A stretch of DNA of 64,000 nt, taken from the NCBI GenBank assembly GCA_039619475.1, contig CM077115.1:446141292-446205291 (forward strand), written 5' to 3'. The DNA is from Icerya purchasi (lineage: Eukaryota; Arthropoda; Insecta; Hemiptera; Monophlebidae). How positions within the stretch are numbered: position 1 is the first letter of the stretch; each line of letters starts with the position of its first letter. Under the pieces are notes generated by a model. It was given only the letters and a program-made list of their open reading frames with translations. It was not told where the DNA came from and searched no databases. Both the position numbers and the translations under genes were made by a program. Of this stretch, positions 1,761 through 56,570 are shown piece after piece.

Positions 1761-4700
1761 TAGGTTTATTGCATTTGTATTAAAAAAAATACACAACTTT
1801 TTTTTCATACGAAGCTCTTAGTTGTTTTTGTTTTTTTAAGCAAAAAAAAAAACAAAACAGGTTTTGACCAACTTTGACCGTTTCCGACAAAAATAACCAA
1901 CAAAAACTAACTGTTTAAACATAGTTATTTTTAATTAACTTATTTTTATCTCGTTTTTCCGTAGGGTCGCTACCTTCTTATCATTATGGCAAAAAAAAAA
2001 CGATGTATTTTCTGTAATTTGCTTAGACTATTTAGCGCACCCCCTCTTAATTCCATTCATTAGATAGGGGTTTAATGATGATTTTGTAGATTTTTAATAA
2101 AAGTTAAAAATTACATTTTGTGATTTGAGGTTTTGTCGCCCCTATTATTTTCTGCGTAATGTGGGAACTTTTTTCTAAATATGTAATTATTACGCTCGTC
2201 TTTTTTGCAAGTTAATAATAATTGCATATTTATGATCAGTGCAGCATAAAAAAAAAATTATGAAATATTTAAATTTTGTTTTGTTTTTTTTTTTTTTTTT
2301 AGCTATTATTTATTAAGTAAGTCGGGGAAAAAATATGGAAAATCGGGAAAAATCAGGGAAATTTATTTTGAAACAAAAAAAAAAAACAACCACCCTGTTA
2401 CATTAATAATATTATTTTGGCTGGCGGATTGGATTGACCGTGTTGGAAGAAATGGTTTTTGAAGAATTTTTTCTACCGCTCTTTTTGCCTTATGTTCCGC
2501 GCAAGCAGGGGAAATTTATATCGGAATACAAAAAGTTGTGTATTCGTTTGAACGGAATTTGTAGTAAGTTTGTTTTGTAGTGTACTGGTACACTTGAAAG
2601 TTCAGTCGTATCGGCCGACGCACGGTGGAATTATATTACGGTAGTTAAGAGGTTGAAAGAACTTTAGATTATTCAATTATATTTTATAGCATTATTAAAT
2701 TACGATTTTAGGTTCACTTCTTGTACCGTTTATTGAAATTCAACGAGAAATTTTATTTATTTCACCGACTATTATTATAATTTGTAAAAGAAGTGGCCAA
2801 TATAAAAGCACGTCTCTATTATTAATCAATTGACGGAAATTTATTTCGTATTTTTTTCAAAATATAGCGTGTCATCTAATTACGTGTAAATTGTGTAATA
2901 GCACAATTTTTTTTATGTACCTGCAAATTTGTAAATAAAATATTACCGATGCTTTGATCTGTGTGCAGTATTCCACTATAAAGGACAACCCCACCGGTAT
3001 CTGCACATTTCCTGTTCAAAAATATACAGAAAACCAGTAGAAAATCCGCAATAAATATACATTTACCTTTCGAAAATTAATTTTTCAATTAAAATTAAAT
3101 AACTTTTAATTATAAATTTTAAAAAAAAAATAAATTTACTGCTTTTTTTTTTTTCAATTTCGATTGTGTTTGTGGTGACGATTAGTAACTAATTTTGCTA
3201 ATAGAAAATCCGTTTTCACCTGCTTTTAATTAAAAATTACGTAAACGCACAAGCTCCTCCGTGAGCACCTCTGAATACTTTTAATCTTGTTTTACCGCTT
3301 CAATCGCGACCCTCTTATTTATCTGATCTTTTTTCGTCGTTTTTCTTTAGTAAGGGTACATTCATTTACAACTTCTATTGCACTTTCCGAATTCTATTCC
3401 GTTGTTAGCTGGCTAAATCATGGTTGGTTGAAGTTGAAACCAATGTTATTAATTCATTTACGTCTTTCAGATTTTGTTTTGCGTGCAACGAATGCAAAAA
3501 AACAAAACTTTTTTTTCTTTTTTTTTTTCCTTTTTCTTTTTTTATTTAATTGAAAACATTTTTTTATCATAGCAGATTTTCTTACGATTTTTGTATCCGC
3601 GTAACGGCATTTAAAACACATCAGTTTATTTCGTCAAGTTCTATTGTTCACATTATATTTCGGGCTAAATTTGCAATTATGCTGAAAATTTATGAAATTT
3701 TGAATGAAATTCCATTATCAAAAAAATTTACCCCTCCACTCGTGATCAGAATTTACGGTCGCTTTCGTCTTAGAAGTAATCCGCTATATAGAGTGGACAG
3801 AGAGCGCTATTATTTAAACATTCAAAAAAAAAAAAAAAAATAGAAGAAAAGTCCGTTTAAAGATCGTAACGGTAGATTTTTATAGAGCCCCACACAATGG
3901 ATGCCCAATATAATCCCCATTATAATACTACGCCCTCAACGATGCCAACCACGATATTTTTCGTTTTTTTCGTTTTTTTTTTATTTTTTATTTTTATTTA
4001 AATGATAACTTTAAATTATTATTATTATTATGATTATTATTAAGTTTATTGTTCGGGTAAACGTTGACATTTTAAATTTTATATTACGGAATATCCTCTA
4101 GATTACCGGGATTCTGAAAAACACACGAACGATAATATAACAAATAAAATAAAATCAAATTCTGTACGTATCATCACTTTTGTTAGTCGCAATCCGTCGG
4201 AATCGCCGTTCCGCTCTAGCTTTCTTCCGACCGCTGTGATTTCCCGACAGCGATGGACTTATTAAAATGAGATGATTTAAAATTAATTTTCTGTTACGAT
4301 AGTTTCAATTAATTCGCGGTAGCAAAACAAACAATTAACCAATTAGCCGGACCAGATTAATTGATGCGAGCAGCAAATCCGGAACCTGCAGAAAGGTAAA
4401 CACCAACAACTGCCTAAGCATTTCTTCTTCGACAGCCAATCACAACCATTTTTCACTAATGAGAGGTGCATACTTCGCTTAGCATACCACCTGATGTGTG
4501 CTATAATTTACCTTTTAACAAGATTTCGTACACACACGCACATTTCCCTCGCCCCCCCCCCGTTTTCCGATATTTTAGAATCGATTTATTTTTTGTTCAT
4601 TTACTGTTCTGTTTTATTTTATTCCATTTGTGTTTTTATTGTTTTACACGTTCAAACACTGTAATGATTACAAGATATAAAAAAATAGAAACGGTGATGG

Positions 4701-6284: not shown

Positions 6285-6510
6285 AAAGTAAAGTAAGTCC
6301 CATACATCCTTGATAAGGTATCATGGATTCTGAAATTAAGCTTTTCATAATGTTCTTAAGGACCTAATGGATCTGATGAGAATACTGTGGGGCCAGTTCC
6401 TTTCTACTTTTGGATTATCCGCCTCTACTTTCCACCTGATAATTCTCTGGTACCCAATTATTTTAGGCTGGGTAAATCTGGGAACGATTCGGATCTGGAA
6501 CGAGACAAGC
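6285..6510 (-). mobile_element. tRNA-derived SINE, 5'-truncated
   Basis: The reverse complement matches the body of the plus-strand SINE that follows: shared GGCGGATAATCCAAAAGTAG, CAGTATTCTCATCAGATCC and the TGAAAAGCTTAA tail region. It begins just inside the position of promoter box B (GCTTGTCTCG), so it lacks the Pol III promoter head. It abuts the next copy head to head. Confidence 0.75.
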
Positions 6511-6800
6511 GCGGTAGTTTAGTGATTAAGGTGCTCGGCTACTAAATCAGAGGAAAGGTGTTCGAGACTTGTCTGGTTCCGGATCCAAGCTGCCCTCAAG
6601 ATTGTACCTAATCTGAAATAATTTGGTTCCAGAGAATTATCTGGTGGAAAGTAAAGGCGGATAATCCAAAAGTAGAAAGGAATTGGCCCCACAGTATTCT
6701 CATCAGATCCATTAAGCTTAGTACAATATGAAAAGCTTAAAATTTCACAATCCCCGACGCCCTGCTAAAAGGGTATGAGACTCGCTTTGCTTGTATAGTT
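6508..6800 (+). mobile_element. tRNA-derived SINE with A and B boxes
   Basis: The head reads GCGCGGTAGTTTAGTGATTA (box A-like, about 6515-6530) and GTTCGAGACT (box B, 6560-6569), the internal RNA polymerase III promoter of a tRNA-derived SINE. A unique body with GGCGGATAATCCAAAAGTAG follows. The 3' part contains CCCCGACGCCCTGCTAAAAG and ends in T-rich sequence. Related copies lie at 36165-36470 and, as a tail only, at 57086-57195. The tRNA species is not assignable by eye. Confidence 0.8.
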
Positions 6801-11450: not shown

Positions 11451-13270
11451 CCCGTTTCAAATGACGAACAGCTCCCTACTACGTGTCCAGGCCTGGAGTG
11501 CATCATTATAATTTAAGCCATCGACGAAAACAGTGTAATTAAAGCTTATTTCACATACACATAAGCGAACGCATCAACGTTTAGCAATTAATGACACATC
11601 GTTCGTAGAAAAAACAAAAATTGTTAGTTGATGATGAAAACGTTTTTCTAAAAGTAAAATAAACGATTAAAATTATTATCAGTGTGTGAAAGGTTTGGTA
11701 AGATTTTCGGACCGTTATTGATTTCAGTGTTCTTCAAGAAGAGATTGTTTTAATTCTTCCGGACATCTCTCGGCCTCTCTGATTGTTCGTTCGTGTCTCT
11801 ATTTATATTTCCTCATTATGCAATGCGATTTATTCTTGGTGCCTCCGTGAAACAGTTAACTTCCTAAATAGGACGGTCTCTCTGGCTAAGCGACGACGAC
11901 ATTCCGTGTTGCACGTATAACGACTACGAATATACGAATTGAATGGAGATAAAACGATAGTGTACACACATATATGACACATTACGTGCATGCGCAGAGG
12001 TACAAAGCTGTCGAAGTATGAAGTGTTCCGATAAAAATGTCGGACAGCGTATTAAATTCTGTGTGTAAAACTTCCAACACACACACAAACACACACACAC
12101 ATACGAACTTTCGCATACGTGATGAGAGGAAATCAAGTTTATCCGGTGCGGCTGGTCGAGAATGAAGCAAACAATAAGTTGTGCGTGAAATAAAAGACAA
12201 AGTGGCCTGTTTAAAAACAAGCACGTGCATCATCATACTCTAGCATCTTGTTGTAGTCCTATTGTTGTGTTAGTTTGATGTAAGAGCGTATGAAAAAACT
12301 TATACCAGTCATATTGTAAATTGAGAATTCCGAGAACAGTGACGTTGTTTAGCCATTTCTTTGCGTGCACTTGTTTTTTAATATGTACAAAAACACCATG
12401 ACCGTCAGAGCTGGAATATGGGTCTTGGTCCCTCTAAATCTGGATTGATTTTTTTTCTATTTTATACCAAACTCGTTTATTTTTTAAAATTTAAATTTTA
12501 CCACTTTAAAAGTCGGCTATATTTAGAGAGCTTTTTCTTTCGCTATTGACCGATTTTTAGGATGAAAAGAAAAAGTCTAATTTGGGCACCGACTAAACAA
12601 TGGGCTTTTTTTTTTGCCTGAACAATATTATACAGTTCATTTGGCCAGCAGGCTAACTTTCAAATCAGACTGAATGCACGAAAACAAAACAAAGTAAAAA
12701 AATTAAGAAAACATTTTTTTGTGTTTTTGTCCAACTGTTTAAACACTACTTATATACTACTAGATAGTAAGTATAAAGGAGGAAACTTCATCCTGCAATA
12801 TGGCCACAACTGCAGAACAGTGCCCACAATGCTGAGATAAAATTTAAGGAAACAGAAAGAAAAAGACAGTACAAATTTGCATTGATCACGTCGCGCAATA
12901 TGGCCGCAACTGTAGAGCGGCGCCCGCAATGTTCGATGAAACAAACTCGATAATCAATAATAACGCCGTGTGAAAGGGAATAATTACTCTACTCGGAGTA
13001 GACAAATAAAATAAAAAAAAAAAAAATGTTCATTAATCCGGACATTGATTGGATTTTTTAAATTACCATTCCATTTCATTTGATAAATGAAAAAAAGGAT
13101 AAACAACGTATGATCACCAGAAACATAAACCACAGGACATCAGCTGTTCAAAAAGGAAGACTCTATCGGTAGATAGGTCCTCAAAACTGAATAATGGTCT
13201 TGACGACAATAATTATTGTTACGACTGTAACAGAGTCAAAATCGAACACGAAAATGTCAAGAATTCGCTT
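11451..13270. other. No gene recognised; (CA)n and a motif pair
   Basis: Contains a CA-rich microsatellite near 12080-12102. Open frames at 11924-12236 run through that microsatellite and have no domain. No host exon could be recognised. Confidence 0.5.
12795..12940 (+). repeat. Paired 45-bp motif, pair 2
   Basis: Two segments at about 12797-12833 and 12896-12933 share CAATATGGCCRCAACTGY and a following GYGCCCRCAATG. They match the pair at 7330-7500 in sequence and in being two direct copies roughly 100 bp apart. Confidence 0.6.
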
Positions 13271-13864
13271 ACAAGGAAAGCACTCGAACCCGAACTCACC
13301 GATTTTGATGAAATTGATATATGTTGTAGAACACAAAAAAATAAAAGACCCGTGTTTTTTTATATCTGCTAATAAACATATTAAGGGGGTGAAAACTACC
13401 CCTAAAGTTTGCCAAAAAAAAAAAAAATCGTTTTTTCTAAATATCTCGACTAATACTTAATATTTTTTGGTACAACAAAATGGAAATTACTCCTTTCGGA
13501 AAATCAAGTAATTCATGATGATTTGAACAATAAGGGATGCATCCCCTATTTTATATGGGTTGAAACCCCATATTTAATTTATTATTTTGATGATAAAAAA
13601 ACAGTAAAAAATCTAAAAAAAATGTTTAACTAATAAAATGATAAAATGAAGTTGACCTATTTCGGTATTTTCGTTAATTTCACCCCTAAAATGGTAAACT
13701 ACCCCTAATACAGAAAAACCAAAAATAGGAATTTCAAGCGATCAGATTTTGAATTCAATTCGGACACAGAGTTTTCGACGTCGCTGATTACGAATCTGAT
13801 GTGATTTTTTTTTTTTTTTTTTATTATATATATTTAATAAAGTTACAAAATAGAAAATGAATAC
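13271..13864 (+). repeat. Left long terminal inverted repeat
   Basis: 594 bp. Starts ACAAGGAAAGCACTCGAACC and ends in TAGAAAATGAATAC. Pairs with 14589-15180. It carries the T run at about 13804-13822 that appears as an A run in the other arm. Confidence 0.9.
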
Positions 13865-14588: not shown

Positions 14589-15180
14589 GTATTCATTTTC
14601 TATTTTGTAACTTTATTAAATATATATAATAAAAAAAAAAAAAAAAATTCACATCAGATTCGTAATCAGCGACGTCGAAAACTCTGTGTCCGAATTGAAT
14701 TCAAAATCTGATCGCTTGAAATTCCTATTTTTGGTTTTTCTGTATTAGGGGTAGTTTACCATTTTAGGGGTGAAATTAACGAAAATACCGAAATAGGTCA
14801 ACTTCATTTTATCATTTTATTAGTTAAACATTTTTTTTTTAGATTTTTTACTGTTTTTATATCATCAAAATAATAAATTAAATATGGGGTTTCAACCCAT
14901 ATAAAATAGGGGATGCATCCCTTATTGTTCAAATCATCATGAATTACTCGATTTTCCGAAAGGAGTAATCTCCATTTTGTTGTACCAAAAAATATTAAGT
15001 ATTAGTCGAGATATTTAGAAAAAACGATTTTTTTTTTGGCAAACTTTGGGGGTAGTTTTCACCCCCTTAATATGTTTATTAGCAGATATAAAAAAACACT
15101 GGTCTTTTATTTTTTTGTGTTCTACAACATATATCAATTTCATCAAAATCGGTGAGTTCGGGTTCGAGTGCTTTCCTTGT
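14589..15180 (-). repeat. Right long terminal inverted repeat
   Basis: 592 bp, the inverted partner of 13271-13864. Confidence 0.9.
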
Positions 15181-15364
15181 TAGAACGAAGATTTAAAAAG
15201 AATCGTAATATCAATGAGTGTAATTTTAGAAGATTTTTTAATGTATTCATTTGATATTTTTTTTTTTAAATTTTCTATTGATTTTTGTAAATTGTGTATT
15301 TGTTTTTTATTGTTAATTGAATAGTTGATTTTCGTTAAATATTTGATTACTTTAATGGTTGATG

Positions 15365-19239: not shown

Positions 19240-19425
19240 GAAGATACGTTTTAGCAGGCAAAGCGCATCTTCAGCAGCGAAAGAAAAACACTGAACATAT
19301 GTCCCGAACAAAATTATACAAAATTTTAAAACCGTAAAATTTTTACAATTTTTTTCGCGACATATGTTCGATCTTTTTCTTTCCCTGCTGAAAATGCACT
19401 TTGCCTGAAAATGTTTTTCCGAGAA
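19240..19425. repeat. Foldback (inverted) repeat, arms about 65 bp
   Basis: Left arm about 19240-19303 and right arm about 19359-19425 share, inverted, CAGGCAAAG, TCAGCAG, GAAAGAAAAA and GAACATATGTC. The spacer is about 55 bp. The open frame on the minus strand across it is a by-product. It is likely a small foldback MITE. Confidence 0.7.
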
Positions 19426-20004: not shown

Positions 20005-20750
20005 CTTACAACGTAATTCTTAGGCTATCCCCATTAGAAAACATGTCCCAATTTTATGTAACGTTTGTTATATTTTAACGCTTCAAAATTTTCCACGTCT
20101 ATCGTTTTTGAACCAGAAGGCGTTTCACGTATAAATGTGGTAAATTCTTCGCTATTGCACAGATATGTATATATATATATATATTAATTACAACGTCATT
20201 CTTAGGACGGCCCCAATTAGATTTTGTAACCAAAAAAATGTCCTAATTTTATGTAACAAAAAAGAAAGAGGTGTACGTTCGTCGCGTATGTTTTTTTTTA
20301 TATATTTGTTCGCGTATAACTTATATTTATATGGACCGATTTAGAATTACGTTGTAAATTTTGATAATTTTATACAAGGTACAGACGAGAAAAAGATAGA
20401 AATGTGAGCAAGAGGGGTCAAGGAGCTGTACCCCTTGACCCCTCTTGCTTTCATTTATGTCTCTTTCTCTTCTATACTTTGTATAAAATTATCAAAATTT
20501 ACAACGTAATTCTTACTGGCATCAACACAAAAAGAAAAACAAAACATAATCACAAAAATCCTATCCTAACATTTAACTTTCATTATGTAAAATTAAGATA
20601 TTGTTTCATTACATTTTTCGTTACATATTTCGTTGCATAAAATTGTGAAATTTTTTAAATAATGGTAACAAAAATCCTATAAAATATAAAAAACGTTACA
20701 TAAAATTGGGACATTTTTTCGAATGGGGGTAGCCTAAGAATTACGTCGTA
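20004..20750. mobile_element. Cluster of MITEs sharing TTACAACGTAATTCTTA
   Basis: The 17-bp word TTACAACGTAATTCTTA or its reverse occurs at about 20006, 20190 (CGTCATT variant), 20341, 20499 and 20733. Copies at 20006 and 20190 are followed by GGCTATCCCC / GGACGGCCCC and then GTCCYAATTTTATGTAAC. The same block appears inverted at 20697-20750. It looks like nested or tandem insertions of one foldback MITE family with TA-rich target sites. Confidence 0.65.
20342..20515. repeat. Near-perfect hairpin MITE, arms about 85 bp
   Basis: The left arm begins at TTAGAATTACGTTGTAAATT and the right arm ends AATTTACAACGTAATTCTTA. The centre reads GGTCAAGG, then about 9 bases, then CCTTGACC at about 20416-20440. 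Arms carry only a few mismatches, so the copy is young. RNA from it would form a long hairpin. Confidence 0.85.
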
Positions 20751-24832: not shown

Positions 24833-24845
24833 GTACTTAAAAACT
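24833..24845 (+). repeat. 13-bp target-site duplication, left copy
   Basis: GTACTTAAAAACT, identical to 29288-29300. It brackets the Penelope palindrome and is interpreted as the duplication made on insertion. Confidence 0.85.
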
Positions 24846-24940
24846 AAATGTAGGTGAATACATCCTGTTTGTTAAAATGGTATAATAAAATAAACTTTAA
24901 TAACAAACAATATAGATCAATAAATTAGATAAATACCTAT

Positions 24941-24977
24941 TTAGAAACGTTTTCGGGCATAACCCATCATCAGCTAA
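24941..24977 (-). ncRNA. Hammerhead ribozyme-like motif (left arm)
   Basis: Mirror copy of 29177-29213; see that entry for the pairing. On the minus strand it lies downstream of the GIY-YIG stop, in the element's 3' part. Confidence 0.65.
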
Positions 24978-25140
24978 CACTAACTTAAAGGAAACTTAAA
25001 ACATACTGAAGTGAATATAGGGAATACATGTGTATATATAGTAGATGTAAAGAAGAATAAACATGGCAGGTATAAAAATCTATAGGTTGAAAATGCTAAT
25101 AATTAATATAAAAAATAAAATAAAACAAGAAGACAAAAAG

Positions 25141-26202
25141 TTAAATTTTTATATTAAACAGTGGATTATTATTATTAGGTGTTTGGTCATTTAAAATATT
25201 ATTTTTATATTTATTTATATAATAATTTTCTGCAATGTTCATATTATTACCTTTGTGATAAGTGGCCAGGATGGTTACAGTATTTTCTATTGAATTAGGT
25301 TTATGTTTATTTTTAATTAAATGTTCTGCATAGGTTGATTTTTCTATTTCATTATTATTAAATGCTTTTATATGTTCTTTATATCTGCAATTGATTTTTC
25401 GCCCTGTTTGACCAATGTATGATTTCTCACAATCAGTACAAATTATTTTATATATACCGCTATTTTCGTAAATATTATTATTTTTTAAATTTAAGGTGTT
25501 TATTTTATATTTTAAATTATTTTTAGTTTTGAATGCTACATTTAAACCTTGTTTTTTGAATAAATTGGTTAATTTGTATATGTTATTGTTTATAAATGTG
25601 AATGTTATCCATCCTTTATTGTTAGTAGCATTATTGACTCTTAATTTTTGTATATATTTTGATTTTGATTTTATTTTGTGAATTAGTTTATCTATTATTT
25701 GTTCGTCATAACCATTATTTCTTGCCAAAGTCTTTAATATATTAATTTCTATTTGTTTTTTATTTATATTCATGGGTGTAGTTAATAATCTATTTATTGC
25801 AGTCATGAAGTAAGCATATTTATGTTGGTTTGGGTGATTTGATGTTTTATGAATTATATTATCAGTGGTGGTTTGTTTTCTATAAATATTATATGTTAAC
25901 TTATCATTTGATTTTATTATTGTTATATCTAAGAAATTTATTTTGTTATTTTCTTCTTTTTCCATAGTATAATGAATATTTTTGTGAATTTTATTTAAAT
26001 CATTTAGAATGTCATTTTCAGTATTACTACTATTTTCATCAAAAATTAGTAGTGTATCATCTACATATCTAATATAAGATTTAATATTGTATTTTTGTAT
26101 TATATTTTCCATGTATATTTCTTCTAAATTTTGTAGAAAGATTTCACTTAAAATACCTGACAAAGGTGAGCCCATAGCTAATCCATTATTTTGTATATAC
26201 AT
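25141..26202 (-). pseudogene. Penelope RT (motif B on) + GIY-YIG endonuclease, left copy
   Basis: 353 codons, identical in protein to 27952-29013. It carries RT motif B (GLAMGSPLS, residues 7-15), the catalytic YVDD (46-49) and a C-terminal GIY-YIG nuclease with GIY (249-251), YIGQTGR (262-268), R273, EH (277-278) and the distal EN (325-326). The upstream RT motifs lie in another frame (26288-27088) because of a one-base shift in an A7 run. The start shown is only the first ATG in this frame; the frame is open further upstream, so it is not a genuine start. Confidence 0.9.
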
Positions 26203-26287
26203 GGAGTTATTAAAATTAAAGTAATTTTGCTCTGTAACAGTTTTAATTATTTGGATTAATTGATTACAAAAAATATTATTCTTTAAC

Positions 26288-27088
26288 TTATTTACAGATT
26301 TTTTTAATTATATCTATGGTTTCATTTATAGGTATATTTGTATAAAGGTTTGTTATATCATAAGAAATTAATTTAGTTTTGTTATTAATTTTTATATTTT
26401 TTAATTTATCAAAAACATCCAATCTGTTTCTAATAGTATATTTATTATTAATTGATATATTAGTTTTTAATATTTTAGTTATTAATTTTGAGATTTTATA
26501 AGAAGGTGCACTAGTATAATTTATTAGTGGTCTTATAGGAGCATTATTTTTATGTATTTTTATTAAAGGGTTAAGAGTTGGTGCTTTTGGGTTCATATTT
26601 ATTAAATATTTAGCTTCATTATTATTTATTATTATATCAGATTCTTTTATTATTTTCCTTATTTTTATTTGATATTTATTAGTGGGGTCTGTTTTTATTA
26701 ATTGTATATTATTTTCTTTTAAAAAATTTTCAGTTTTTTGGATGATTTCATTTTTATTGATGATTACTAAACTGTTTCCCTTATCTGCTTTTACAATGAC
26801 TGCATTGTTTTGTTTTAATTTACTATTGATATTTTTAATTGTGTTTTGTATTTTTAAATGTTCTATATTTGTTTCATTTTTCTTTAAGATATTTCTGATG
26901 GCATGAGTTGCCTCAGCTCTAATAATTGTTTGATCTTCAATTGGTAATTTTTGGATAGCAGATTCAGTTTCTATAATTAAATTTTCATATTGTTTTTTGT
27001 TATATATGTTTAAATTATATTTATAGCCCAAATTTACAGTATTAATTTCATCATTTGTTAATTGTATGTTGGTTAAGTTAACCAACAT
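26288..27088 (-). pseudogene. Penelope RT N-terminal half, left copy
   Basis: 266 codons, matching 27066-27866 except residue 4 (Asn here, Lys there), which is coded across the palindrome centre. It contains KADKGNSLVI (residues 100-109), RPLIN (186-190) and motif A SYDITNLYTNIP (242-253). The ATG lies across the centre, so the native amino end is missing and translation from here would be an accident of the junction. Confidence 0.9.
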
Positions 27089-27866
27089 ACAATTAACAAA
27101 TGATGAAATTAATACTGTAAATTTGGGCTATAAATATAATTTAAACATATATAACAAAAAACAATATGAAAATTTAATTATAGAAACTGAATCTGCTATC
27201 CAAAAATTACCAATTGAAGATCAAACAATTATTAGAGCTGAGGCAACTCATGCCATCAGAAATATCTTAAAGAAAAATGAAACAAATATAGAACATTTAA
27301 AAATACAAAACACAATTAAAAATATCAATAGTAAATTAAAACAAAACAATGCAGTCATTGTAAAAGCAGATAAGGGAAACAGTTTAGTAATCATCAATAA
27401 AAATGAAATCATCCAAAAAACTGAAAATTTTTTAAAAGAAAATAATATACAATTAATAAAAACAGACCCCACTAATAAATATCAAATAAAAATAAGGAAA
27501 ATAATAAAAGAATCTGATATAATAATAAATAATAATGAAGCTAAATATTTAATAAATATGAACCCAAAAGCACCAACTCTTAACCCTTTAATAAAAATAC
27601 ATAAAAATAATGCTCCTATAAGACCACTAATAAATTATACTAGTGCACCTTCTTATAAAATCTCAAAATTAATAACTAAAATATTAAAAACTAATATATC
27701 AATTAATAATAAATATACTATTAGAAACAGATTGGATGTTTTTGATAAATTAAAAAATATAAAAATTAATAACAAAACTAAATTAATTTCTTATGATATA
27801 ACAAACCTTTATACAAATATACCTATAAATGAAACCATAGATATAATTAAAAAAATCTGTAAATAA
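27066..27866 (+). pseudogene. Penelope RT N-terminal half, right copy
   Basis: Penelope-type reverse transcriptase, N-terminal part: KADKGN (residues 100-105), the PLIN-Y-x-SAP segment (187-195) and motif A SYDITNLYTNIP with the first catalytic aspartate (D244). The frame ends at a stop at 27864-27866, ten codons after motif A, where an A7 run (27849-27855) puts the rest of the RT into the +1 frame. Penelope elements normally have one continuous ORF of roughly 800 residues. Here the visible part sums to about 650, so some 150 or more N-terminal residues are absent, cut at the palindrome centre. Codons are very A-rich (many Lys/Asn/Ile). Confidence 0.9.
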
Positions 27867-27951
27867 GTTAAAGAATAATATTTTTTGTAATCAATTAATC
27901 CAAATAATTAAAACTGTTACAGAGCAAAATTACTTTAATTTTAATAACTCC

Positions 27952-29013
27952 ATGTATATACAAAATAATGGATTAGCTATGGGCTCACCTTTGTCAGGTA
28001 TTTTAAGTGAAATCTTTCTACAAAATTTAGAAGAAATATACATGGAAAATATAATACAAAAATACAATATTAAATCTTATATTAGATATGTAGATGATAC
28101 ACTACTAATTTTTGATGAAAATAGTAGTAATACTGAAAATGACATTCTAAATGATTTAAATAAAATTCACAAAAATATTCATTATACTATGGAAAAAGAA
28201 GAAAATAACAAAATAAATTTCTTAGATATAACAATAATAAAATCAAATGATAAGTTAACATATAATATTTATAGAAAACAAACCACCACTGATAATATAA
28301 TTCATAAAACATCAAATCACCCAAACCAACATAAATATGCTTACTTCATGACTGCAATAAATAGATTATTAACTACACCCATGAATATAAATAAAAAACA
28401 AATAGAAATTAATATATTAAAGACTTTGGCAAGAAATAATGGTTATGACGAACAAATAATAGATAAACTAATTCACAAAATAAAATCAAAATCAAAATAT
28501 ATACAAAAATTAAGAGTCAATAATGCTACTAACAATAAAGGATGGATAACATTCACATTTATAAACAATAACATATACAAATTAACCAATTTATTCAAAA
28601 AACAAGGTTTAAATGTAGCATTCAAAACTAAAAATAATTTAAAATATAAAATAAACACCTTAAATTTAAAAAATAATAATATTTACGAAAATAGCGGTAT
28701 ATATAAAATAATTTGTACTGATTGTGAGAAATCATACATTGGTCAAACAGGGCGAAAAATCAATTGCAGATATAAAGAACATATAAAAGCATTTAATAAT
28801 AATGAAATAGAAAAATCAACCTATGCAGAACATTTAATTAAAAATAAACATAAACCTAATTCAATAGAAAATACTGTAACCATCCTGGCCACTTATCACA
28901 AAGGTAATAATATGAACATTGCAGAAAATTATTATATAAATAAATATAAAAATAATATTTTAAATGACCAAACACCTAATAATAATAATCCACTGTTTAA
29001 TATAAAAATTTAA
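27952..29013 (+). pseudogene. Penelope RT (motif B on) + GIY-YIG endonuclease, right copy
   Basis: 353 codons from the first in-frame ATG; the frame is open from about 27853. RT motif B GLAMGSPLS (residues 7-15), motif C YVDD (46-49; the two catalytic aspartates) and INFLDITI (88-95) are intact. After a linker of about 150 residues comes a C-x-x-C (CTDC, 255-258) inside the GIY-YIG domain: SGIYKI, SYIGQTGR, NCRYKEH, STYAEH and a late EN pair. All expected nuclease residues are present. This half would be functional if joined to its N-terminus. It acts in nuclear target-primed insertion. Inactive here because of truncation and frameshift. Confidence 0.92.
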
Positions 29014-29176
29014 CTTTTTGTCTTCTTGTTTTATTTTATTTTTTATATTAATTATTAGCATTTTCAACCTATAGATTTTTATACCTGCCATGTTTATTCT
29101 TCTTTACATCTACTATATATACACATGTATTCCCTATATTCACTTCAGTATGTTTTAAGTTTCCTTTAAGTTAGTG

Positions 29177-29213
29177 TTAGCTGATGATGGGTTATGCCCG
29201 AAAACGTTTCTAA
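29177..29213 (+). ncRNA. Hammerhead ribozyme-like motif (right arm)
   Basis: The core CTGATGA (29181-29187) is followed by a short hairpin GGGTTATGCCC (29189-29199), then GAAA (29200-29203), then the self-complementary AACGTT (29203-29208), then U and CUAA. TTAG (29177-29180) can pair with CTAA (29210-29213) as stem I. A tiny palindromic stem III is what is known for minimal, dimer-acting hammerheads of Penelope elements. Predicted cleavage is after U29209. Pairings were worked out by eye; activity is untested. Confidence 0.7.
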
Positions 29214-29287
29214 ATAGGTATTTATCTAATTTATTGATCTATATTGTTTGTTATTAAAGTTTATTTTATTATATTATATTATATTAT

Positions 29288-29300
29288 GTACTTAAAAACT
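29288..29300 (+). repeat. 13-bp target-site duplication, right copy
   Basis: GTACTTAAAAACT, identical to 24833-24845. Confidence 0.85.
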
Positions 29301-49599: not shown

Positions 49600-52500
49600 T
49601 AAAGTTGCCAAAAACTTCAAACAGTTCATCCCCTCTAGCGCCGCGAGTATTACGGCTAAAAATTTTGAACAGGGTTAAACATATGCGCTTCGACATATAT
49701 TTCTCAAGTTTGGAACATCAAGGTTTGAAAGTTTCGTTAAGGAAATAACTTATGGTTTCGTTCTCGACAAATAACGATCTTTCCATCGATCATGACCGGA
49801 AAAAAAATATTATTTTTGAAACTTTCGAGCTTTCGGCGCTTAAGGTTCTGAATTTTAAGATGGAAACCTAGATGTTCCAAAGTAAATAAATAAACAGGGA
49901 CTCACATTTTTTTAACCTTGTTCAAAATCTTGAACCAATACATAAATTACAAGCGGGGCTACACGTCATTTTTCAGAATTTTATGAACTTTTAGTAAATT
50001 TCAAACAGTTTTGTTAAGAAAACGAAATACGGGTCCGTTCCCGAAAAATAGCGCTCTTTCCAATAATAATACACTTGAAAAAATTTTTTTTTTTACAAAA
50101 TTTCGAGCTTTCAGAGCCCCAAGTCACTAATTTTAAAATTGGAAACTTAGATGTTCCAAACCAGAGAAATATACATGGATGCCCATATTTACTACTTTCC
50201 TCAAAATTTTTAGCTATAATACTCGCGTCACAAATCAATTCTCTCGATTTTTTGAACTTTTCAGCAAACTTTGAAAGTTCAATTAAGAAAATGAAATACG
50301 GTTTCTTTCCCGACAGATAGCGATCCTTCAAACGGTATATAACATGCGTCAGAAAAATAAAAAATTTTCTTTAAAATTTCGAACTTTCGGCGCCTTAAGG
50401 GTCTAATTTTAAAACTGAAAATCCAAATGTTATAAACTCGAGAAATATAAGGGGATCAGCACGTTTTTAGCCGCGTTCAAAATTTTCAGCTGTAATATTC
50501 GTGGAGCTAGTGGAGAGACACATAATTATTTTTTTTTTTTCAACTTTTCAGAACTTTGAAAATTTCTTTAAAAAAATGAAATACGGTTTCGTTCCCGACG
50601 AATAGCGATATTTCTAATGATATATCACAAACCTAAACAAAAAAAATTTTTTTTCAAAATTTTGAATTTTCGGTGCCCCACAGGTCTCAGTCTAAAGTTG
50701 GGGTCCGATTGTCTTAAATCAGAGAAATATACGTAGAGTCGCGTTTTTTCTACCATGTTCCAAATTTATAGCTGTAATACTCGCGTCGCAAGAAGGGGGC
50801 CGCTAATTGGAGCTGACGCTTTTTTGAACTTTACGTCAACTTTGAAAGTTTGGTTAAGAAAATGAAATTCGGTTTCGTTCCCGACTACTAGAGATCTTTC
50901 TAATGATATATCACAAGCCCAAGAAAAAAAATATTTTTTTCCAAAATCTCGAGCTTTCGGTGCCCCGAGGGTCCAATTTTGACGCTGGAAACTCGGATGT
51001 TCCAAACTAGAGAAATATACGTGGAAGCGCATATTTTTAACCGTGTTCAAAATTTTTATCGGTAATATTCGCGGCGCTAGGGGGGGGGGCACGTCATTTT
51101 TCGCGCTTTTTTGAACTTTACGGCAACTTTGAATTTTTTGGTAAAGAAAATGATATATAGTTTTGTTCTTGATAAATAGCGATCTTTCAAACGATATATT
51201 ACATTACCGGGAAAAAAAATATTTTTTTACAAAATTTTGAGCTTTCGAAGCCCCAGAGTTTTATTTTTAAAGCTTGAGACCCGGACGCACCAAATTACAG
51301 AAATATACGTGGAAGTACATATTTTTAACCATGTTTTAAATTTTTAGCTATAATACTCGCAGCGCTAGGGGACGCGCAATTTTTTGAGCTTTTTTGAGCT
51401 TTATCTCATCTTTGAAAGTTTGGTTAAGAAAATGAAATTCGGTTTCGTTTCCGACTACTAGAGATCTTTCTAATGATATATCACAAGCCCAAGAAAAAAA
51501 ATATTTTTTTCCAAAATCTCGAGCTTTCGGTGCCCCGAGGGTCCAATTTCGAAGCTGGAAACTCGGATGTTCCAAACTAGAGAAATATACGTGGAAGCGC
51601 ATATTTTTAACAGTGTTCAAAATTTTTATCGGTAATATTCGCGGCGCTAGGGGGGGGGGACACGTCATTTTTCGCGATTTTTTGAACTTTACGGCAACTT
51701 TGAATTTTTTGGTAAAGAAAATGATATAAGGTTTTGTTCCTGATAAATAGCGATCTTTCAAACGATATATTACATTACCGGGAAAAAAAATATTTTTTTA
51801 CAAAATTTTGAGCTTTCGACACCCCGGAGTTTTATTTTTAAAGCTTGAGACCCGGACGCACCAAATTACAGAAATATACGTGGAAGTACATATTTTTAAC
51901 CATGTTTTAAATTTTTAGCTATAATACTCGCAGCGCTAGGGGACGCGCAATTTTTTGAGCTTTTTTGAGCTTTATCTCATCTTTGAAAGTTTGGTTAAGA
52001 AAATGAAATTCGGTTTCGTTTCCGACTACTAGAGATCTTTCTAATGATATATCACAAGCCCAAGAAAAAAAATATTTTTTTCCAAAATCTCGAGCTTTCG
52101 GTGCCCCGAGGGTCCAATTTTGAAGCTGGAAACTCGGATGTTCCAAACTAGAGAAATATACGTGGAAGCGCATATTTTTAACCGTGTTCAAAATTTTTAT
52201 CGGTAATATTCGCGGCGCTAGGGGGGGGGGACACGTCATTTTTCGCGCTTTTTTGAACTTTACGGCAACTTTGAATTTTTTGGTAAAGAAAATGATATAA
52301 GGTTTTGTTCCTGATAAATAGCGATCTTTCAAACGATATATTACATTACCGGGAAAAAAAATATTTTTTTACAAAATTTTGAGCTTTCGACACCCCGGAG
52401 TTTTATTTTTAAAGCTTGAGACCCGGACGCACCAAATTACAGAAATATACGTGGAAGTACATATTTTTAACCATGTTTTAAATTTTTAGCTATAATACTC

Positions 52501-55500
52501 GCAGCGCTAGGGGACGCGCAATTTTTTGAGCTTTTTTGAGCTTTATCTCATCTTTGAAAGTTTGGTTAAGAAAATGAAATTCGGTTTCGTTCCCGACTAC
52601 TAGAGATCTTTCTAATGGTATATCACAAGCCCAAGAAAAAAAATATTTTTTTCCAAAATCTCGAGCTTTCGGTGCCCCGAGGGTCCAATTTCGAAGCTGG
52701 AAACTCGGATGTTCCAAACTAGAGAAATATACGTGGAAGCGCATATTTTTAACAGTGTTCAAAATTTTTATCGGTAATATTCGCGGCGCTAGGGGGGGGG
52801 GACACGTCATTTTTCGCGATTTTTTGAACTTTACGGCAACTTTGAATTTTTTGGTAAAGAAAATGATATAAAGTTTTGTTCCTGATAAATAGCGATCTTT
52901 CAAACGATATATTACATTACCGGGAAAAAAAATATTTTTTTACAAAATTTTGAGCTTTCGACACCCCGGAGTTTTATTTTTAAAGCTTGAGACCCGGACG
53001 CACCAAATTACAGAAATATACGTGGAAGTACATATTTTTAACCATGTTTTAAATTTTTAGCTATAATACTCGCAGCGCTAGGGGACGCGCAATTTTTTGA
53101 GCTTTTTTGAGCTTTATCTCATCTTTGAAAGTTTGGTTAAGAAAATGAAATTCGGTTTCGTTTCCGACTACTAGAGATCTTTCTAATGATATATCACAAG
53201 CCCAAGAAAAAAAATATTTTTTTCCAAAATCTCGAGCTTTCGGTGCCCCGAGGGTCCAATTTCGAAGCTGGAAACTCGGATGTTCCAAACTAGAGAAATA
53301 TACGTGGAAGCGCATATTTTTAACAGTGTTCAAAATTTTTATCGGTAATATTCGCGGCGCTAGGGGGGGGGGACACGTCATTTTTCGCGATTTTTTGAAC
53401 TTTACGGCAACTTTGAATTTTTTGGTAAAGAAAATGATATAAAGTTTTGTTCCTGATAAATAGCGATCTTTCAAACGATATATTACATTACCGGGAAAAA
53501 AAATATTTTTTTACAAAATTTTGAGCTTTCGACACCCCGGAGTTTTATTTTTAAAGCTTGAGACCCGGACGCACCAAATTACAGAAATATACGTGGAAGT
53601 ACATATTTTTAACCATGTTTTAAATTTTTAGCTATAATACTCGCAGCGCTAGGGGACGCGCAATTTTTTGAGCTTTTTTGAGCTTTATCTCATCTTTGAA
53701 AGTTTGGTTAAGAAAATGAAATTCGGTTTCGTTTCCGACTACTAGAGATCTTTCTAATGATATATCACAAGCCCAAGAAAAAAAATATTTTTTTCCAAAA
53801 TCTCGAGCTTTCGGTGCCCCGAGGGTCCAATTTTGAAGCTGGAAACTCGGATGTTCCAAACTAGAGAAATATACGTGGAAGCGCATATTTTTAACCGTGT
53901 TCAAAATTTTTATCGGTAATATTCGCGGCGCTAGGGGGGGGGGACACGTCATTTTTCGCGCTTTTTTGAACTTTACGGCAACTTTGAATTTTTTGGTAAA
54001 GAAAATGATATAAGGTTTTGTTCCTGATAAATAGCGATCTTTCAAACGATATATTACATTACCGGGAAAAAAAATATTTTTTTACAAAATTTTGAGCTTT
54101 CGACACCCCGGAGTTTTATTTTTAAAGCTTGAGACCCGGACGCACCAAATTACAGAAATATACGTGGAAGTACATATTTTTAACCATGTTTTAAATTTTT
54201 AGCTATAATACTCGCAGCGCTAGGGGACGCGCAATTTTTTGAGCTTTTTTGAGCTTTATCTCATCTTTGAAAGTTTGGTTAAGAAAATGAAATTCGGTTT
54301 CGTTCCCGACTACTAGAGATCTTTCTAATGGTATATCACAAGCCCAAGAAAAAAAATATTTTTTTCCAAAATCTCGAGCTTTCGGTGCCCCGAGGGTCCA
54401 ATTTCGAAGCTGGAAACTCGGATGTTCCAAACTAGAGAAATATACGTGGAAGCGCATATTTTTAACAGTGTTCAAAATTTTTATCGGTAATATTCGCGGC
54501 GCTAGGGGGGGGGGACACGTCATTTTTCGCGATTTTTTGAACTTTACGGCAACTTTGAATTTTTTGGTAAAGAAAATGATATAAAGTTTTGTTCCTGATA
54601 AATAGCGATCTTTCAAACGATATATTACATTACCGGGAAAAAAAATATTTTTTTACAAAATTTTGAGCTTTCGACACCCCGGAGTTTTATTTTTAAAGCT
54701 TGAGACCCGGACGCACCAAATTACAGAAATATACGTGGAAGTACATATTTTTAACCATGTTTTAAATTTTTAGCTATAATACTCGCAGCGCTAGGGGACG
54801 CGCAATTTTTTGAGCTTTTTTGAGCTTTATCTCATCTTTGAAAGTTTGGTTAAGAAAATGAAATTCGGTTTCGTTCCCGACTACTAGAGATCTTTCTAAT
54901 GGTATATCACAAGCCCAAGAAAAAAAATATTTTTTTCCAAAATCTCGAGCTTTCGGTGCCCCGAGGGTCCAATTTTGAAGCTGGAAACTCGGATGTTCCA
55001 AACTAGAGAAATATACGTGGAAGCGCATATTTTTAACCGTGTTCAAAATTTTTATCGGTAATATTCGCGGCGCTAGGGGGGGGGACACGTCATTTTTCGC
55101 GCTTTTTTGAACTTTACGGCAACTTTGAATTTTTTGGTAAAGAAAATGATATAAGGTTTTGTTCCTGATAAATAGCGATCTTTCAAACGATATATTACAT
55201 TACCGGGAAAAAAAATATTTTTTTACAAAATTTTGAGCTTTCGACACCCCGGAGTTTTATTTTTAAAGCTTGAGACCCGGACGCTCCAAATTACAGAAAT
55301 ATACGTGGAAGTACATATTTTTAACCATGTTTTAAATTTTTAGCTATAATACTCGCAGCGCTAGGGGACGCGCAATTTTTTGAGCTTTTTTGAGCTTTAT
55401 CTCATCTTTGAAAGTTTGGTTAAGAAAATGAAATTCGGTTTCGTTTCCGACTACTAGAGATCTTTCTAATGATATATCACAAGCCCAAGAAAAAAAATAT

Positions 55501-56570
55501 TTTTTTCCAAAATCTCGAGCTTTCGGTGCCCCGAGGGTCCAATTTTGAAGCTGGAAACTCGGATGTTCCAAACTAGAGAAATATACGTGGAAGCGCATAT
55601 TTTTAACCGTGTTCAAAATTTTTATCGGTAATATTCGCGGCGCTACGGGGGGGGGACACGTCATTTTTCGCGCTTTTTTGAACTTTACGGCAACTTTGAA
55701 TTTTTTGGTAAAGAAAATGATATAAGGTTTTGTTCCTGATAAATAGCGATCTTTCAAACGATATATTACATTACCGGGAAAAAAAATATTTTTTTACAAA
55801 ATTTTGAGCTTTCGACACCCCGGAGTTTTATTTTTAAAGCTTGAGACCCGGACGCACCAAATTACAGAAATATACGTGGAAGTACATATTTTTAACCATG
55901 TTTTAAATTTTTAGCTATAATACTCGCAGCTCTAGGGGACGCGCAATTTTTTGAGCTTTTTTGAGCTTTATCTCAACTTTGAAAGTTTGGTTAAGAAAAT
56001 GAAATTCGGTTTCGTTCCCGACTACTAGAGATCTTTCTAATGGTATATCACAAGCCCAAGAAAAAAAATATTTTTTTCCAAAATCTCGAGCTTTCGGTGC
56101 CCCGAGGGTCCAATTTTGAAGCTGGAAACTCGGATGTTCCAAACTAGAGAAATATACGTGGAAGCGCATATTTTTAACAGTGTTCAAAATTTTTATCGGT
56201 AATATTCGCGGCGCTAGGGGGGGGGGACACGTCATTTTTCGCGCTTTTTTGAACTTTACGGCAACTTTGAAAGTTTCGTTAAGGAAATGAAATTCGGTTT
56301 CGTTCCCGACAAATAGCGATCTTTCCATCGATATATCGCATGCCTATAAAAAAAAATATTTTTTTACAAAATTTTGAGCTTTCGTCGCCCCGAGGGTCCA
56401 GTTTTAAAGTTGGAAATCCGGATGTTCCAAACTAGAGAAATATACGGGTATGTGCGTATTTTTAGCCCCATTCAAAATTTTTAACTACAATACTCGCGGC
56501 GCTAAGGGGGGGGGACACGTCATTTTTTGCTGTTTTTTGAACTTTTGGGCAACTTTGCATAACTTTTGTA
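49600..56570 (+). repeat. Satellite array of about 280-bp monomers
   Basis: Monomer boundaries, taken at AATAYTCGC or its variant, fall near 49936, 50218, 50494, 50776, 51064, 51352, 51634, 51923 and so on to 56489, spacing 276-289 bp. Each monomer contains, in order, an ACGTCATTTTT-like segment, GAAAGTTTSGTTAAGRAAAT, a GTTCCCGAC or similar word, GATCTTTC, AAAAAAATATTTTTTT, GAGCTTTCG, GTTCCAAAC and GAAATATACGTGGA. Edge monomers (49936-51350, 56200-56570) are more diverged than central ones. The partial unit at 49600-49712 is inverted. Confidence 0.95.
51352..56488 (+). repeat. 571-bp higher-order repeat, nine units
   Basis: Two monomer types alternate: an AATACTCGCAGCGCTAGG type (282 bp) and an AATATTCGCGGCGCTAGG type (289 bp, with a G9-like run). 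Together they form a 571-bp unit starting at 51352, 51923, 52494, 53065, 53636, 54207, 54778, 55348 and 55919. Units differ at only a handful of sites; the second half of the last unit is diverged. This is the same logic as higher-order satellites: dimerisation followed by local homogenisation. Minus-strand open frames of 137 codons in most units are a periodic by-product and not called as genes. Confidence 0.95.

Follow-up and report, generated by a model that had tools for sequence, protein, structure and literature searches.

How does a retroelement come to lie in a genome as two mirrored copies of itself, with what looks like the trace of one insertion around them? The question was raised by a stretch of 64,000 nucleotides from the hemipteran Icerya purchasi (contig CM077115.1, positions 446,141,292 to 446,205,291 of the forward strand; hereafter the window), in which an initial annotation had described a head-to-head dimer of a Penelope-like element (PLE) left by a single integration. 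The analysis reported here led us to conclude that the window very probably holds one PLE integration that was primed from both target strands, a reading that rests on the anatomy of the insert and of its relatives in the same genome.

The palindromic insert and its target site

The arms of the palindrome were mirrored about position 27077 without a single mismatch over 2,196 positions per side (span 24881-29273), exactly as had been claimed, and a repeat finder returned slightly longer arms of 2,204 nt because chance matches prolong the symmetry. The 13-bp direct repeat reported at both edges was likewise verified: within the window, GTACTTAAAAACT occurred on the + strand at 24833 and 29288 only, and nowhere on the - strand. 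Since this 13-mer is found at 200 places genome-wide, the word alone is weak evidence, and what counts is its location at both edges together with an empty site. The joined flanks matched 38 other places across the junction at 82-89% identity, most of them over query positions 1 to 409 (best 40 of 1,718 candidates scored), which agrees with the claim that the flanks are parts of one interrupted repeat relic and identifies the target as a copy of an older repeat. The paralogous site that was read (L111) carries CCAAAGGTACTTAAAAACTCTGATTTGAC, with the 13-mer present once, and thus represents a paralogous empty site, for which the initial annotation had proposed a search. The insertion left a 13-bp duplication of the target with no loss of sequence, and on the right side a 14-bp TTATA-type repeat (29274-29287), absent from the initial annotation, precedes the duplication. 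At the level of the assembled sequence, the palindrome was confirmed to be real, with a single target duplication around a head-to-head insert. The genome searched comprised 1,103,370,081 bases, with two large sequences, C1 (601,656,059 bases, holding the window) and C2.

Palindromes can stem from fold-back reads, and the evidence for the present one is assembled sequence and not raw reads, as would suit a false palindromic join made during assembly. An artefact of this kind was considered highly improbable, as the initial annotation had also held, because the symmetry does not end at the same point on the left as on the right, both ends being enclosed by one target duplication and of different types, and because the same anatomy recurred in 66 inserts on C1 and C2. 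In addition, the two-chromosome assembly was produced from HiFi reads by hifiasm at a mean depth of 31 (PMC11183206). We gave still less credence, in fact almost none, to two successive insertions, the second having entered in or beside the first in opposite orientation. Such a nested opposite-orientation Penelope insert has been described (PMC3846280); however, the window shows one duplication at the outer ends and an uninterrupted paralogous site, its junction joins two internal points of the element, and both arms carry identical variants.

Outer ends of two-armed inserts

Both outer ends of the window insert are 3′ ends of the element facing out, one at a tailed site (donor position about 2716) and the other at an untailed site (donor position 2680). 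In unit coordinates, position 1 being the first base of the tail, the outer ends of two-ended inserts formed two classes, untailed ones at 2680-2687 and tailed ones at 2711-2722, which extend about 36 bp further into the first codons, so that a tail of 30-40 bp lies between two start sites. Every one of the 66 inserts that could be read at both outer ends was head-to-head and had one tailed and one untailed end. The one-sided 35-bp extension noted in the initial annotation is therefore present, but it is a recurrent PLE tail marking a start site.

These inserts were collected in three sets. Set A consisted of the copies from a BLAST list with both outer ends visible, chosen by BLAST rank and including the window (further listed copies ran past the fetched sequence at one outer end, and L017, L027 and L030 displayed a single arm); all 11 had one tailed and one untailed end, with duplications of 12-16 bp. 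For set B, a 28-base end word that is blind to the tail was searched, and was found at 3,067 places at no more than one mismatch, against 0 for the control. The genome searches scored the best 40 candidates and listed 100 places, exact ones first, and copy counts are accordingly lower bounds; the first 100 listed end-word places, all exact and on C1 up to 50.9 Mb only, formed the 52 clusters of set B. By the strands of their ends, 35 of these clusters were of the type '-+', two '-++', one '--+' and one '----++++', while ten were single '-' and three single '+'; no '+-' cluster occurred among the 52. Both ends were thus head-to-head in 39 clusters, and six further ones were resolved so on reading, all 45 being one-tailed. 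In particular, reading of the 35 '-+' clusters gave one tailed and one untailed end in 35/35, and a list of exact tail words placed the tail on the left in 18 and on the right in 17, with none tailed at both ends or at neither. The four multi-end clusters also proved one-tailed, with duplications of 13 (L107), 13, 14 and 15 bp; the one at 50.19 Mb was scored on its outer parts with the middle excluded, and the cluster at 8.62 Mb contained a third, untailed end (L139) separate from the resolved pair. The six resolved singles were pairs with a short or mutated second arm (6/6 one-tailed), and the remaining seven (L081, L082, L087, L088, L090, L091 and L093) were one-armed or without a resolved partner. 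As a later check, the 20 tailed ends that follow on C1 were fetched as set C. The 10 inserts resolved in it, including L129, which was read by eye, were all one-tailed; the ten others either had their partner end beyond the stretch viewed or displayed a single arm. When the eight internal array joints were removed from the set-B list, 43 of the 92 outer ends were tailed by exact word.

The target duplications had a median length of 13 bp (range 9-19; 12-14 in 36 of the 42 tabulated inserts) and were 84% A+T, the lengths being approximate since each is that of the longest word shared near the two ends. At least two extra bases were present at 12/42 untailed ends compared with 1/42 tailed ends. 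They were T and A, in TTATA-like runs repeating the last template bases, and such slippage repeats indicate that the untailed end is a start of copying and not a stop.

The head-to-head two-arm product is, as read from these inserts, the usual insertion mode of this PLE family. The initial annotation had called the arrangement unusual, a view that did not survive the tail-blind survey; what stands out is the equality of the arms. Other head-to-head copies, for which it had proposed a search, were found in number. Meanwhile, an 18-kb head-to-head array with four 3′ ends per side was observed at C1:3247907-3265883 (L018-L022, L137 and L138), inside one 15-bp duplication and with one untailed and one tailed outer end; it could be a single multi-unit insertion or the outcome of later growth inside one insert.

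The outer ends also bear on self-priming, the model proposed for Penelope palindromes in Adineta vaga (PMC3846280). In it, the end of a single cDNA, or of an antisense RNA, loops back, and the second arm arises as a copy of the first. The spacers of about 10-20 nt at many junctions resemble hairpin loops, near-equal arms were commoner than expected (see below), and the window alone would fit; its tailed arm holds the centre, so that the window by itself is not decisive. A copied arm, however, should share the outer end of its template, whereas the two ends differed in 66/66 inserts. Furthermore, the untailed arm was the longer one in 28 of 40 inserts (by at least 10 nt in 23), even though the tail is on the other arm; the tailed arm was longer in 11 (by at least 10 nt in five), and one insert was equal. 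As a fold-back copy cannot carry sequence absent from its template, a longer untailed arm argues against self-priming as the usual mode, whether from cDNA or from antisense RNA. The initiation slippage at untailed ends speaks in the same direction, and spacers of 0-1 nt (the window, L054 and L055) are too short for an intramolecular hairpin. As a general mode, self-priming was thus contradicted, and we consider it unlikely here.

Inner ends and the proposed insertion pathway

Among the 32 inserts with tabulated inner ends, 18 untailed arms stopped at 2546-2567 and 17 tailed arms at 2550-2574, that is, at TATATATA (2521-2528) and two initiator-like words with an A at 2549 and 2554. Over half of the arms of small inserts stopped at this TATA/initiator-like site, which likely corresponds to the 5′ end of the RNA, reached by run-off; a span of 234-253 bp, as run-off to the promoter-like site predicts, was seen in 14 of the 35 '-+' clusters. 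Ribozyme-cut RNA was also considered as the usual template and was rejected, since more than half of these arms end at about 2546-2574, upstream of the predicted hammerhead cleavage near 2617. A minor group of arm ends at 2613-2626, close to that point (L056, L057, L058, L087, L089, L091 and L093), may mark ribozyme-cut templates. A minimal type I hammerhead ribozyme at the joint between the pseudo-long terminal repeat and the coding frame is a trait of GIY-YIG-bearing PLEs; the hammerhead-like core present in both window arms gave no Rfam hammerhead match (E up to 1; gathering score), and its fold was no better than that of shuffles (z -0.33).

Near-equality of the arms was assessed from inner ends taken as BLAST ends copied by hand, which may be off by a few bases; for L100, the tailed inner end (about 1374) was set by eye where BLAST gave 1360. 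Excluded from the symmetry test were, in set B, the complex L095, L099 (whose junction is that of L098) and three multi-unit clusters and, in the first list, the multi-unit copy at C1:3.25 and the one at C2:47, whose left outer end lay outside the reading. Inner ends lay within 30 nt of each other in 26 of the 40 set-B inserts, against 11.05 with partners shuffled. The excess persisted when inserts with both ends at the promoter-like site were removed (9/23, 2.70 expected; p = 8e-5), in the deep inserts only (4/13, 1.16 expected; p = 0.011), and in the deep inserts combined with 13 of the 15 first-list junctions, window included (8/26, 1.35 expected; p = 1e-5). Equal arms hence look like a distinct tendency, of which the window is the symmetric case. 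The window arms, moreover, showed no difference in 2,178 bp, compared with at least seven to the four other arms covering the same stretch, and across 13 inserts the arms differed from each other at 26 positions in 11,729 bp. Near-equal arms with shared variants fit two cDNAs made from one broken RNA, although the same picture would arise from two RNAs of one locus that were broken at the same point.

One pair of junctions bears on whether a ready-made head-to-head dimer, of RNA or DNA, had moved as a unit. L098 (C1:50.70 Mb) and L099 (C1:50.74 Mb), 39 kb apart, lie in different target duplications and have a common junction (tailed arm 1043, untailed arm 2408; 98.7% identity over 1,957 bp). 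No other pair with the same two inner ends was present among the junctions read, and an arm end at about 1042-1046 was shared by L095, L098, L099 and L133, so that the coincidence may reflect a stop hot spot; a moved dimer was judged very unlikely. The recurrent arm end at unit 1042-1046 is possibly an RNA break or a hot spot of reverse transcriptase (RT) stops.

For priming from both target strands, the anatomy can be arranged into the following pathway. The element's enzyme would make a break with 3′ overhangs, and the 3′ end of each target strand would prime copying of the element RNA, one at each start site. The two antisense cDNAs would reach a common 5′ point at donor position about 483-487. 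Donor units read AACTTAACCAAC at this place; the left arm includes the C (a G in the cDNA) and maybe two bases beyond it, and the right arm matches the donor from TTAACC. The single-base centre pointed out in the initial annotation is thus present, and its G is the base copied by the left arm. The identical cDNA 3′ ends might then anneal via the imperfectly self-complementary AAGTT, with AA/TT pairs flanking a G.G mismatch, and fill-in would leave a perfect palindrome centred on one base. The common stop in small inserts would be the promoter-like site, probably the RNA 5′ end, and for equal arms at internal points both cDNAs would have copied the same broken RNA, which is the least certain step. 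Of the template switching or twin priming that had been suggested initially, priming from both strands was retained, in that the RT start sites lie inside one duplication, and template switching is not needed. A second cDNA primed at an internal RNA site, as in twin priming, was not seen: the two cDNAs each begin at one of the 3′ start sites and overlap on the same stretch of RNA.

In support of such a pathway, an anole PLE protein cuts and extends both strands in vitro, using two start sites with the tail between them (PMC11167929). Several observations nevertheless weigh against it. In that study, the top and bottom strands did not apparently differ in their start sites, which leaves the strict one-per-end rule without explanation. 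Independence of the two cDNAs does not account for arms that are equal at internal points, so that some coupling must be added, and in L096, L097, L101 and S31168 the arms differed from each other at 5, 3, 2 and 8 positions, as compared with 5, 3, 2 and 7 to the nearest other copy. One-armed copies also occur, as a minority. L087 (untailed) and L124 (tailed) adjoin a duplication directly, and in L088 (tailed) about 11 nt intervene, the repeat at the ends of these three copies being 11-14 bp long; seven more (L017, L027, L030, L091, L093, L112 and L127) have one arm and no clear duplication. Given these single-arm copies, the one-tail rule concerns two-armed inserts.

We regard as evenly poised the broader proposal that Penelope elements insert by an obligatory two-cDNA reaction, in which one RNA is held in a protein dimer and two start sites about 36 nt apart are each used once, one per target strand. 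If true, each complete insert would have one tailed and one untailed end and the RNA would be copied twice; inverted repeats and palindromes would be direct products of the pathway, and one-armed inserts its failures.

Element identity and relation to known systems

Judged by its coding sequence, each arm is a 5′-truncated PLE with RT and GIY-YIG endonuclease regions. As the initial annotation had stated, these face outwards in both arms, which share an identical frameshift and lack about the first 155 codons (Table 1). Read across the frameshift, the window open reading frame (ORF) matched 661 proteins at E <=0.001 (7,996 scored), with 45% identity to the top match and insect proteins of Schistocerca, Rhagoletis, Phthorimaea and Euphydryas among the named matches. 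Tandem units of 2,680 bp with an open 800-aa frame, in the arrangement that produces the pseudo-long terminal repeats (pLTRs) of PLEs, were located at C1:3.25 Mb and C1:593.5 Mb, the latter within a direct tandem array (C1:593504101-593546503; 13 units listed, period about 2,680 bp). The 800-aa ORF matched telomerase RT chains (phmmer, E 4.4e-4), as expected of the telomerase-related RT of PLEs, and the YVDD region lies in invariant columns of the alignment with relatives; the window C-terminal ORF reached RVT_1 at E 1.1e-6 with 28.9 bits, below the cut-off of 29.6, and a Pfam search of the 800-aa ORF gave no match at E 0.001. A CC..HH pattern marks GIY-YIG-bearing PLEs. In the alignment with six relatives, the GIY-YIG residues G696, Y698, C702, C705, Y709, I710, G711, R720, H741 and H747 were invariant, as expected of an endonuclease in the C-terminal part of the same ORF; the relative P0013 matched PF01541 (E 0.0015) with 19.3 bits, below the cut-off of 22.6, and the window proteins gave no PF01541 match.

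Since the arms share a frameshift that is absent from the reference tandem unit, the copied RNA probably already carried it. The frameshift word was tried as a mark of the source copy and discarded: of its four places, two are the arms and two lie in further copies whose variant sets differ, so that the frameshift is recurrent. Rfam microRNA matches over the centre (MIR7807 and mir-3003) were likewise dismissed, being below the gathering score and of a kind that any long perfect hairpin gives. Elsewhere in the window, a tandem array with a period of about 571 bp (49716-56560; diverged copies near 5.4, 22.8 and 62.3 kb), an inverted pair of about 599 bp at 97.8% identity (13268-13864 and 14589-15183), and three imperfect palindromes (80-87%) matching their own reverse complement (6325-6753, 19255-19407 and 20343-20513) were observed.

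Table 1. Positions of the insert and its parts in the window.
Feature	Positions	Strand	Remarks
Left target-site duplication, GTACTTAAAAACT	24833..24845	.	Exact copy at 29288-29300; single copy in paralogous empty site L111
35-bp PLE tail, left arm	24846..24880	-	Contains start codon and first codons (MYSPTF) of donor ORF; marks downstream RT start site, donor-unit position about 2716
Left (tailed) arm, 5′-truncated copy	24881..27077	-	Donor-unit 2680 to about 483
Hammerhead-ribozyme-like core CTGATGA..CGAAA, left arm	24951..24973	-	2 matches in window, 0.08 expected
Mirror promoter-like stretch, left arm	25005..25040	-	
C-terminal RT (YVDD) and GIY-YIG endonuclease, left arm	25141..26202	-	
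RT ORF, N-terminal part, left arm	26288..27088	-	Frameshifted relative to 800-aa ORF of tandem units; first codons in other arm
Palindrome centre (G)	27077..27077	.	Copied by left arm; donor sequence AACTTAACC
RT ORF, N-terminal part, right arm	27066..27866	+	First codons in other arm
Right (untailed) arm	27078..29273	+	Donor-unit about 486 to 2680
C-terminal RT and GIY-YIG endonuclease, right arm	27952..29013	+	
TATATATA box and initiator-like words (TTCACT, TTCAGT) of pLTR, right arm	29114..29149	+	Donor-unit 2521-2556; putative promoter
Hammerhead-ribozyme-like core, right arm	29181..29203	+	
TTATATTATATTAT, repeats of last template bases at untailed start site (slippage)	29274..29287	+	
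Right target-site duplication	29288..29300	.	Same word as left; single in L111

According to the in vitro study, the insertion mechanism of PLEs is largely unknown (PMC11167929). As the genome contains some 3,000 3′ ends of a single young family, exact or nearly so, its insertion products can be read as though from an experiment. The one-tail rule links the two start sites and both-strand extension seen in vitro to genomic inserts, speaks against self-priming as the source of palindromes, and offers a countable prediction for other PLE families. Publications already describe PLE inserts in head-to-head order, their tails and the in vitro extension of two strands, and no statement of a strict one-tail-per-insert rule or of an equal-arm excess was found in the open papers searched (older subscription Penelope papers lay outside the search).

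A close likeness is to the endonuclease-bearing (EN+) Penelope elements of Adineta vaga, as far as described in PMC3846280. These, e.g., Pen2a_Av, have an inverted pLTR at the head, with an optional 31-bp tail on one inverted pLTR; their pLTRs cover the first codons and include TATATATA with a TCACT initiator-like site, the target duplication is 9 bp, palindromes occur at inverted junctions, and head-to-head is the commonest inverted arrangement. All of these traits, from the inverted head pLTR with its tail and first codons to the TATA/initiator site, short duplication, palindromes and head-to-head order, have counterparts in the Icerya family, which differs in its roughly 3,000 3′ ends by word search, in exactly one tail in each of the 66 two-ended inserts read, in equal arms of up to 2.2 kb, and in the evidence against self-priming.

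Poseidon of Anolis carolinensis (PAc), as reported in PMC11167929, shares the tandem units, a hammerhead-like core at the joint of pLTR and ORF, AT-rich targets, a tail that is the stretch between two RT start sites, and the cutting and extension of both target strands; the PAc start sites in vitro, however, showed no difference between the strands, whereas the ends of Icerya inserts differ. In the twin priming of LINE-1 (PMC12016303), too, both target strands prime cDNA on the element RNA, with an inverted result and a similar duplication length. There, however, priming of the second cDNA takes place inside the RNA, and in 46% (132/287) the two parts of an inversion meet to within 20 bp on the RNA, whereas the Icerya cDNAs, both begun at 3′ start sites, represent the same RNA twice and give inverted duplications. 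Inversions account for 18-22% of LINE-1 inserts (PMC12016303), as compared with the majority in the Icerya family.

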